A DNA stretch of 64,000 nucleotides. Source: Gammaproteobacteria bacterium (GTDB taxonomy: Bacteria > Pseudomonadota > Gammaproteobacteria > Pseudomonadales > Azotimanducaceae). The notes below the pieces were generated by a model, which was not told the DNA's origin, ran no database searches, and was given only the letters and a program-made list of their open reading frames with translations. A program made the position numbers and the translations under genes. The DNA lies in contig PBRQ01000017.1 of assembly GCA_002725995.1 (NCBI GenBank), positions 62,641 through 126,640 on the forward strand, given 5' to 3'. Below, piece after piece: positions 6,500-11,747 of this stretch (positions within the stretch are counted from its first letter, which is position 1; each line of letters starts with the position of its first letter).

Positions 6500-6671
6500 T
6501 GTTCTCTCTCTTCCGATTATCCAGCCGGCATACTATGCCAAGGACAGGCGCATTGCCATAAGTCGCCACGAGTAATCAGCAAGATCTAATGCCCAGGCTG
6601 ATGGGCTAAAGAATTTTTGCAAATCGATCAAGGCTCGCTGATAATTCATACAAACCAATCAGGATCAGACC

Positions 6672-7016
6672 ATGGCCAAGATAATTGACTGGTACTATTT
6701 TCGAAAGGGATGAACCAGCTGCACTAAAGCATCCAAGTTTTTGGAAGCACGTAATATCGATATAAAGGAAACGGTGCCCGCCAGCCGAAAACTTCAGGCT
6801 GAGGATTCGAAGGAGCTGCTCTTGTCAGCCAGTAAGCTCATTACCATCAAGGGTAAGAAAGTCAGTTTTTTCAAGGGTGGCAGAGAGACGACAGAGGAAG
6901 CTGTTGCTTCGATGCTGGGTCCCACGGGTAACATGCGGGCGCCCACGATTCGAATGGGCAAGACCCTCATCGTCGGTTTTAACGAAGCGATTCTTGCAGA
7001 CCAGTTTGGAGCCTAG
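6672..7016 (+). CDS. Putative selenoprotein, ArsC/thioredoxin-fold family, with in-frame UGA (Sec14)
   Basis: ATG at 6672 preceded by AGGA (6661-6664); in frame through TGA 6711-6713 with ORF 6741..7016: MAKIIDWYYFRKG[U]TSCTKASKFLEARNIDIKETVPASRKLQAEDSKELLLSASKLITIKGKKVSFFKGGRETTEEAVASMLGPTGNMRAPTIRMGKTLIVGFNEAILADQFGA. Confidence 0.8.
6729..6748 (+). promoter_or_regulatory. Candidate bacterial SECIS stem-loop
   Basis: GC-A-TCCAA-[GTTT]-TTGGA-A-GC hairpin; apical loop begins 23 nt after the UGA and starts with G. Confidence 0.6.
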
Positions 7017-7832: not shown

Positions 7833-9437
7833 ATGTCTGCTTACCTTAAAGAAGTCGCTAATCTAGATACGTTACGCGAATGCCACAAGGAAACCTGGAA
7901 GGGAATAAATGCTGAATATGCAGCCCGAATGCGATTGCAGAACAGGTTTACAACGGGCCTTGAGATAGCGCAGTACACCGCAGATATCGTGCGCAAGGAT
8001 ATGGCCGACTATGATCTTGATTCCGGCAACTACACTCAATCGCTTGGTTGCTGGCATGGATTTACGGCGCAACAGCTGGCAGTGTCAGTAAAGAAACACC
8101 GCGGTACCATGGATAAGAGTTATATCTACTTGAGTGGCTGGATGGTCGCCGCGCTTCGTTCACAATTCGGACCGCTTCCTGACCAGAGCATGCACGAAAA
8201 AACGGCCGTTCCTAGCCTTATCGAAGAAATATATACGTTCCTCAAACAATCTGATGCAAGGGAACTCCGGCATGTCTTTACCAAACTCGATGAAGCCAGA
8301 ACGAATGGTGGTGATGTAGACGGCATCATAGACCGTATTGACAATTTTCAGACTCACGTCGTACCCATTATCGCGGATATTGATGCTGGTTTCGGAAACG
8401 AAGAAGCGACCTACCTGCTGGCGAAGAGGATGATCGAAGCGGGCGCCTGCGCGATACAGGTAGAAAACCAGGTATCCGATGCCAAGCAGTGTGGACACCA
8501 GGCCGGTAAGGTCACGGTTCCCCATGAGGATTTCCTGTCAAAGATCAACGCCATCCGCTACGCATTCCTGGAACTGGGTATTAACAATGGCATCATCGTC
8601 GCCCGAACCGACTCTTTAGGTGCAAGCCTCACGCAAAAAGTCCCTGTCTCACAGGAGCCGGGTGATCTAGCCAGCCAATACAACGATTTTCTTGAAACTG
8701 AAGAGATTCACGACCTGAACGAGCTTCGTGAAAATGATATTACTATTCACCAGGGAGGCAGACTGGTGAAACCGGTACGTCTCGACAATGGTCTCTATTC
8801 CTTTCAGGATGGAACCGGTTTTGATCGAGTGGTTCTCGATTGTGTTACCAGCCTTAACCATGGTGCCGACCTGCTTTGGATCGAAACTGCAAAGCCAAAT
8901 GTTGCCCAGATTGCCGAAATGGTAAATGCGGTACGAAAACACGTCCCGGATGCCAAACTTGTCTACAACAATTCTCCTTCCTTCAACTGGACGCTCGCTT
9001 TTCGCGAACAGGTCTACGGGGAATGGGTTGAAGCGGGTAAGGATGTATCCGGTTACCCCGACCCGGCTGTTGAAGCGAAGGGGCTCATGAGTGAGGAATT
9101 CGATCAATCAGAACTAGCCGCTGAGGCGGACGCACTGGTACAAAGATTCCAGAAAGACGCTTCACACGAGGCTGGAATATTTCATCACCTGATAACCTTG
9201 CCAACCTACCACGAGACAGCTCTCGGTACAGACATTTTGTCTGAGGGGTACTTCGGCGAGCTTGGCATGTTAGCTTATGTACGAGATGTCCAACGTCAGG
9301 AAATCCGCAGGGATATGGCGTCGGTTAAACACCAGGACATGGCGGGTTCCAGTATCGGGGATGACCACAAGGAATATTTTTCTGGTGAGAAAGCACTTCT
9401 TGCCGGCGGTAAAGACAATACGATGAACCAGTTCTAA
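7833..9437 (+). CDS. aceA: Isocitrate lyase (long, Pseudomonas-type)
   Basis: Full-length 534 aa; CIQVENQVSDAKQCGHQAGKVTVPHEDF; IVARTDSLGA. Confidence 0.92.
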   Translation: MSAYLKEVANLDTLRECHKETWKGINAEYAARMRLQNRFTTGLEIAQYTADIVRKDMADYDLDSGNYTQSLGCWHGFTAQQLAVSVKKHRGTMDKSYIYLSGWMVAALRSQFGPLPDQSMHEKTAVPSLIEEIYTFLKQSDARELRHVFTKLDEARTNGGDVDGIIDRIDNFQTHVVPIIADIDAGFGNEEATYLLAKRMIEAGACAIQVENQVSDAKQCGHQAGKVTVPHEDFLSKINAIRYAFLELGINNGIIVARTDSLGASLTQKVPVSQEPGDLASQYNDFLETEEIHDLNELRENDITIHQGGRLVKPVRLDNGLYSFQDGTGFDRVVLDCVTSLNHGADLLWIETAKPNVAQIAEMVNAVRKHVPDAKLVYNNSPSFNWTLAFREQVYGEWVEAGKDVSGYPDPAVEAKGLMSEEFDQSELAAEADALVQRFQKDASHEAGIFHHLITLPTYHETALGTDILSEGYFGELGMLAYVRDVQRQEIRRDMASVKHQDMAGSSIGDDHKEYFSGEKALLAGGKDNTMNQF

Positions 9438-9557
9438 AGTCTGGTGCAAGTGGCGGCCTGGTGATGTTGCACAGATATCCCAAACCTCCCTTTTTCCCGG
9501 CTCAACCCTCTGTCGGTGACTGCTGAAATCGCATTCGCCAATGTGATAGCATTTCAC

Positions 9558-11747
9558 ATGGATTTTGCTGTAAGAAACTACATGGTCAGAGGTATATTTT
9601 TACTCTACTGCCTAGTGTTCATAATAATGAACTCCCAGGCAGAAGTAAGTCACGAACGGCTCATAAATGCTGATGAGGAACCGGGCAGTTGGCTAACTCA
9701 CGGCCGGAACTACGCCGAGGACAGACAAAGCCCACTCACCTCAATTAACAAAGAAAATATCAGTAAGCTGGGTCTTGCCTGGTACTTTGATACCGGAACG
9801 ACAAGAGGCCTAGAAGCATCCCCACTCATCATTGACGGTGTGATCTACAGTACCGGCTCCTGGAGCAAAGTGTTCGCCAATGATGCGGTGAGCGGGCAAC
9901 CCCTCTGGAACTACGACCCGCAGGTACCACGAGCCTGGGGTGTCAATGCCTGCTGCGATGTTGTCAATCGCGGGGTCGCTGCCTGGGGCGACAGCATTTA
10001 CTTTGGCTCCCTTGATGGCAGACTGATTGCCCTGGATAGTGCAACAGGAAACCTTCGATGGGAGACCCTTACCATTGATCCGGCACGACCCTACACCATT
10101 ACCGGTGCCCCCAGAATCATCAATGGAAAGGTCATTATCGGCAACGGTGGTGCCGAATACGGCGTGCGCGGCTATGTTTCAGCATACGATGCCGAATCAG
10201 GGGAACTGCTTTGGCGTTTCTATACGGTACCTGGAGATCCGAGCAAGCCCTTTGAATCAGAAGCAATGCGCATGGCTGCCAAGACCTGGACAGGCGATGT
10301 CTATTACGAGGTGGGTGGTGGTGGCACAGTCTGGGATTCCATGGCCTACGATCCTGAGCTCAACTTGCTCTATTTTGGCGTTGGCAACGGCTCTCCATGG
10401 AACCGGCATATAAGGTCTCCCGAGGGTGGTGACAACCTGTTTCTTTCTTCCATAATCGCCGTCAATCCAGATACGGGTGAGTACGTTTGGCATTATCAAA
10501 CCACGCCGGCAGACTCCTGGGACTACACGGCCACACAACATATCATCCTTGCTGATCTTACAATCGCCAACAAAACTAGAAAGGTGCTGATGCAGGCGCC
10601 AAAAAACGGATTCTTCTACGTCATTGACAGGCAGACAGGCGAATTAATCTCTGCGGAGAAATACACCCCCGTCTCCTGGGCAAGCCATGTTGATCTCAAG
10701 ACGGGCAGACCTGTGGAAACAGCCAATGCCAATCACCTGCTCAAGGAACAGATATCCGGACCAATGGGTCTCGGAGGACATAACTGGCACCCCATGGCAT
10801 TCAACAAGCAAACCGGCCTTGTATACATACCCGCCATGGAGAACAGCTGGGTCTACAACACTATTGAAGATTTCCAGTATTTCTCTGGAGGAAACTGGAA
10901 TCTTGGTCAGAAAGTAGAAGCAAAATACGCGAGACTGCAGAGCACATTGCCACCACTACTCACGCAGGCAACCATGAAGGGTCTGTTGAAAGGCAGACTC
11001 ATCGCCTGGGACCCAGTCACCCAAAAGGAACGCTGGCGAGTAGATCATGTAACCATGTGGAATGGTGGCCTACTAACAACTCAATCCGGGCTTGTATTTC
11101 AAGGTACCGGGGATGGCCGCTTCGTTGCTTATGATGCAGAATCCGGCCAGAGACTCTGGCAAACCAATACCGTAACAGGCGTTATCGCGGCTCCGGTTAG
11201 CTATGAAATCGATGGAGACCAGTATGTCGCGGTCATGGCCGGCTGGGGGGGAGGCGCTCCGGTAGCCCTAAAAATGCCCGGCAGTGCCTCCGCCAAAAAC
11301 GGAAGACTGCTGGTCTACAAGCTGGGCGGCAAGGAGTCGCTTCCTGATGTTTCAGTAGAACATACAATGCCTCGACCACCAAAAAATCGGGATATCGATG
11401 ATTCTGTCAACGATGGAGCGAACCTGTACAACATCCACTGCATGCGATGTCACGGTAGCAATGCCCTGAGCGGAGGCATTATTGCTGACCTTCGATACAT
11501 GAATGAGGATAGCCACAGGCTGTTCAATGAGATTGTATTAGGCGGCATTCTCAGTGGTGCCGGTATGGTAAGTTTCAAGGAAGTTCTGAGTCAGGCAGAT
11601 GCTGACGCAATACATGACTACATAATTTACGCTGCCAATCTCAAATGGGAAGAAGATCACTCCTCCGATTGGTGGGCTAGCTTCCGCGGCTGGTTTTATG
11701 AGAAATTGGTTCCCATACTCGTCATGCTCAATTCACCGCCTGAATAG
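9558..11747 (+). CDS. PQQ-dependent quinohemoprotein dehydrogenase (methanol/ethanol family) with C-terminal cytochrome c
   Basis: ORF 9516..11747; WLTHGRNYAEDRQSPL, vicinal Cys in GVNACCDVVNRG, beta-propeller repeats, C-terminal CMRCH heme motif. Confidence 0.9.
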   Translation: MDFAVRNYMVRGIFLLYCLVFIIMNSQAEVSHERLINADEEPGSWLTHGRNYAEDRQSPLTSINKENISKLGLAWYFDTGTTRGLEASPLIIDGVIYSTGSWSKVFANDAVSGQPLWNYDPQVPRAWGVNACCDVVNRGVAAWGDSIYFGSLDGRLIALDSATGNLRWETLTIDPARPYTITGAPRIINGKVIIGNGGAEYGVRGYVSAYDAESGELLWRFYTVPGDPSKPFESEAMRMAAKTWTGDVYYEVGGGGTVWDSMAYDPELNLLYFGVGNGSPWNRHIRSPEGGDNLFLSSIIAVNPDTGEYVWHYQTTPADSWDYTATQHIILADLTIANKTRKVLMQAPKNGFFYVIDRQTGELISAEKYTPVSWASHVDLKTGRPVETANANHLLKEQISGPMGLGGHNWHPMAFNKQTGLVYIPAMENSWVYNTIEDFQYFSGGNWNLGQKVEAKYARLQSTLPPLLTQATMKGLLKGRLIAWDPVTQKERWRVDHVTMWNGGLLTTQSGLVFQGTGDGRFVAYDAESGQRLWQTNTVTGVIAAPVSYEIDGDQYVAVMAGWGGGAPVALKMPGSASAKNGRLLVYKLGGKESLPDVSVEHTMPRPPKNRDIDDSVNDGANLYNIHCMRCHGSNALSGGIIADLRYMNEDSHRLFNEIVLGGILSGAGMVSFKEVLSQADADAIHDYIIYAANLKWEEDHSSDWWASFRGWFYEKLVPILVMLNSPPE

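Follow-up and report, generated by a model that had tools for sequence, protein, structure and literature searches.

The 64-kb stretch of DNA analysed here (the window) comes from an uncultured gammaproteobacterial (Pseudomonadales-type) MAG and carries, close to one end, a reading frame interrupted by a single TGA. From the ATG at 6672 the frame comprises 13 sense codons, one TGA and then open sequence to a TAG. With the TGA translated as selenocysteine (Sec), the product is MAKIIDWYYFRKG-U-TSC... and spans 114 residues. An earlier reading, made from the sequence without database searches (the sequence-only reading), had proposed this ATG, an AGGA upstream of it, 13 codons and an in-frame TGA, and our translation from 6672 matches that proposal exactly. 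The features of the locus are as follows.

6661..6664, + strand: Shine-Dalgarno-like AGGA, 7 bases 5′ of the ATG, read in the sequence
6672..7016, + strand: putative selenoprotein CDS, 114 residues including Sec14; ATG start, TAG stop at 7014-7016
6711..6713, + strand: in-frame UGA, read as Sec14 (codon 14); TGA in all Sec-type relatives read
6720..6722, + strand: TGC, Cys17, the predicted resolving Cys of UxxC; invariant in alignment A1
6729..6748, + strand: SECIS-like stem-loop GC-A-UCCAA-GUUU-UUGGA-A-GC, with loop guanosine 6737
6915..6947, + strand: conserved LGPTGNMRAPT motif with predicted cis-Pro Pro91, from alignment A1 and the predicted thioredoxin fold

Apart from the ATG at 6672, no ATG, GTG, TTG or CTG codon lies between the TGA and the upstream in-frame TAA at 6642. 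The table-11 ORF list contains at this locus only a 91-aa ORF with a TTG start (6741-7016), in agreement with the ORF track described in the sequence-only reading. That ORF begins downstream of the UGA, as expected from the same reading's claim that standard callers would shorten the gene; table-11 calling truncates it past the active site, so that the redox pair is lost. The 64-kb window was also screened for other UGA candidates by their U/C/S/T spacing, keeping those that hardly overlap larger ORFs; this returned three frames, none of them in a redox-like context.

Membership in a catalogued family

The readthrough product matches NCBIfam NF041106, ‘ArsC family (seleno)protein’ (ArsC_rel_Se_1), with 110.2 bits over residues 5-106, above the curated cut-off of 85 bits. 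All 24 aligned sequences (the product and 23 relatives from other genomes) match this model, and the UxxC/CxxC motif with Sec or Cys in first place is present in the product and its relatives. We found no difference between the locus and NF041106, UxxC being common to both. Other profile matches of the product (Spx, YruB glutaredoxin and Pfam ArsC) were all weak.

A 2026 review of prokaryotic selenoproteins lists an ‘Arsenate reductase-like protein, NF041106, UxxC’ (PMC13188914), and a 2022 review includes an ArsC UxxC selenoprotein (PMC9312934). The 2008 Global Ocean Sampling (GOS) survey reported a UxxC ‘Arsenate reductase 2’, cd03032, which is probably the same family; like the locus it is an ArsC-type UxxC selenoprotein of marine bacteria, represented in that paper by metagenomic sequences only (PMC2398784). 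The UxxS ArsC selenoprotein (TIGR00014; Sargasso Sea, GOS ‘Arsenate reductase 1’) shares with the locus an ArsC-type fold and an N-terminal Sec, but the locus differs from it in having UxxC and leaves its model unmatched. A literature search found no biochemical study of the NF041106 family. The original observation is confirmed, and the locus adds one more member to a known family; as that family is already catalogued, it is an overlooked gene of a known sort and not a novel one.

Conservation around the UGA codon

Of the 51 rows recovered, 50 have TGA in the Sec column and one, L043, has TGT (Cys); the rows count the window twice and include some near-identical genomes. L043, from genome G034, is the stop-free member and carries the Cys motif GKGCPAC. 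The sequence-only reading had placed the UGA at a redox Cys/Sec site (UxxC), had proposed looking for Cys homologues there, and had held that homologs lacking a conserved Cys/Sec column would speak against a selenoprotein. The column is conserved, being TGA in the Sec-type relatives and Cys in L043, the one Cys homologue seen. Every sequence in alignment A1 has W7, R11, G13, Sec/Cys14, Cys17 and GPTGNMR. Conservation extends to the codons before the UGA, where changes among the 24 retrieved relatives are mostly silent. Comparison of L021 with the window finds 34 of 39 bases identical from ATG to UGA (codon differences: 4 silent, 1 replacement); immediately 5′ of the ATG, 18 of 60 bases are identical. 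Beyond the gene, conservation falls in L021; in L020 it falls on the downstream side.

The loop of the stem-loop that follows the UGA starts 23 bases 3′ of it, and its first base is G. Across the family a mean of 6.9 of the 8 pairs are formed, versus 5.2 under synonymous recoding. The window sequence alone has little excess stability in a synonymous-recoding test (z about 0), so the case for a SECIS element rests on the family. Compensatory cells number 10 among 41 distinct sequences versus 2.5 in shuffles, with 0 of 500 shuffles as high, although relatedness of the sequences weakens these counts. Pairing is destroyed when the partner strand of the stem is slid. The clearest compensation, found in four sequences, changes the A-U pair at the top of the stem to G-C, with Lys AAG/Leu TTG becoming Arg AGG/Leu CTG. 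A G occupies loop position 1 or 2 in 49 of 50 Sec rows, and RNAalifold recovers the inner four pairs of the stem only. These comparisons support a small stem-loop with an apical-loop G after the UGA as a SECIS-like element, weak in the single sequence.

Selenocysteine machinery and distribution

The source MAG (3.24 Mb, 102 contigs, 87% complete) contains adjacent selA and selB genes on contig C11 and a tRNA-Sec with anticodon TCA at the very end of C28 (1-78), where it is cut in the T arm. This tRNA is identical at 75 of 78 bases to selC of two same-genus genomes, and its truncation at the contig end explains why ARAGORN did not report it. The search for sel genes suggested by the sequence-only reading, which would have taken their absence as a refutation, therefore succeeded for selA, selB and a truncated tRNA-Sec, all in the same MAG, and failed for SelD in an assembly that is 87% complete: a profile search of this assembly gave no match (one weak hit), and the same-genus NADH-dehydrogenase-SelD fusion used as query found no SelD fragment in it. 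The weak hit, on C78, was identified as ThiL, within a rib-nusB-thiL operon. In the window's GTDB family, 51 of the 61 genomes, both same-genus ones included, have SelD above cut-off; the simplest account of its absence here is an assembly gap. In most of the family the SelD frame is free of stops and about 730-770 codons long; L087, the only such frame whose sequence was read, encodes an NADH-dehydrogenase-like fusion, a type described previously (PMC2398784).

SelD contains one internal TGA in four genomes of the same family (L079-L082, from G049, G019, G012 and G002), and so appears to be a selenoprotein itself in those genomes. A second selA above cut-off is located on C49 (5000-10000, L048), between ribonuclease E/G-like and nuoB-like genes. 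C49 is a 10.5-kb contig with a GC content of 0.54, versus 0.49-0.51 elsewhere, and has no selB beside its selA; the contig could be a contaminant, or its selA a second copy.

The ArsC-like gene is above cut-off in 35 of the 61 genomes of the GTDB family; 34 of these carry a single internal TGA, and the remaining one has no stop. In a 398-genome sample of the phylum, the sole genome to score above cut-off was the one that the window comes from; relatives beyond the gammaproteobacteria come from one Polyangiaceae and one Phycisphaerae MAG. The gene goes with SelB (33 of 51 SelB-positive versus 2 of 10 SelB-negative genomes; Fisher p = 0.014, with genome incompleteness and relatedness as caveats). 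An all-against-all ORF comparison of about 50 loci revealed no neighbour gene shared with the window, so that gene context offers no pointer to a substrate, and the second-largest neighbour cluster was rejected as an antisense shadow ORF. In the window, an isocitrate lyase family gene (7833-9437) and then a PQQ-dependent dehydrogenase (9516-11747) with a cytochrome c-type domain at its C-terminus follow the locus.

The NF041106 match, the Sec/Cys column, the SECIS-like stem with its compensatory changes, and the presence of selA, selB and tRNA-Sec in the genome together support, at the level of sequence, the reading of the UGA as Sec and of the product as a selenoprotein with an ArsC/thioredoxin fold.

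Predicted fold and function

The AlphaFold2 model of the product is confident, with a mean pLDDT of 90.7. Spx heads the solved structures in the sequence-profile and the fold comparison alike (TM-scores about 0.55), and the two Cys of its CxxC motif correspond to Sec14 and Cys17, respectively. We read the product as one thioredoxin-fold domain belonging to the Spx/YffB-like ArsC group, with Sec14 and Cys17 forming a Sec-x-x-Cys pair; Pro91 of GPTGNMR(A/S)P is expected to be the cis-Pro. SelB and tRNA-Sec, directed by the stem-loop after the UGA, would insert Sec at codon 14; the Sec selenolate would then attack an oxidised substrate, Cys17 would resolve the intermediate to a selenenylsulfide, and a cellular thiol system would re-reduce it. 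A stand-alone Sec/Cys thiol oxidoreductase is the most likely role, and arsenate is not favoured as its substrate.

We consider it very likely that the locus is a UGA-encoded selenoprotein gene of the NF041106 family, decoded by SelB and tRNA-Sec, whose product is probably a stand-alone thiol oxidoreductase. We give almost no credence to the UGA being an error of sequencing or an actual stop codon, in a pseudogene or a gene that starts at the TTG at 6741: the table-11 ORF does start downstream of the UGA, but dozens of genomes carry this TGA at the same place, along with conserved upstream codons, and such a product would lose the active-site UxxC. In R773 ArsC, the residue before the cis-Pro is a catalytic Arg, one of a triad. 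Alignment A1 has Ala or Ser, not Arg, before the predicted cis-Pro. It is improbable that the product is a genuine R773-type ArsC arsenate reductase with Sec replacing Cys12, despite the naming in published surveys and a weak similarity to Pfam ArsC (14.9 bits, below the 24-bit cut-off). No NCBIfam arsenate reductase model is matched even at E = 1, and the motif is UxxC, versus UxxS in the listed arsenate reductase selenoproteins. The ArsC-like selenoprotein family named in the sequence-only reading is hence retained in the sense of NF041106, above cut-off, and dropped in the sense of an arsenate reductase. With no such model matched and Spx proteins closest among solved structures, ‘ArsC’ serves here as the name of a fold only.

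Spx being the best match by sequence and fold among solved structures would fit a redox regulator of Spx type, binding to the alpha subunit of RNA polymerase, and Spx (PDB 1z3e, 6gho) has a CTSC-type motif at the same position. The product differs from Spx in having Sec for the first Cys and in falling far under the Spx model cut-offs (29.7 bits versus 75.05 for the Spx/MgsR model), and TM-scores of about 0.55 also count against a regulator of this type, which we think quite unlikely. Equally unlikely, in our view, is a Sec-based Spx-like redox switch with which uncultured gammaproteobacteria would regulate RNA polymerase or some particular partner, as opposed to a simple reductase.

The locus is a gene that ordinary ORF calling has apparently missed and is likely to mis-annotate, with the active-site pair gone, in a family that is widespread within one GTDB family. 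The natural Cys form in L043 offers a built-in comparison for what Sec adds in a Spx/ArsC-type fold.
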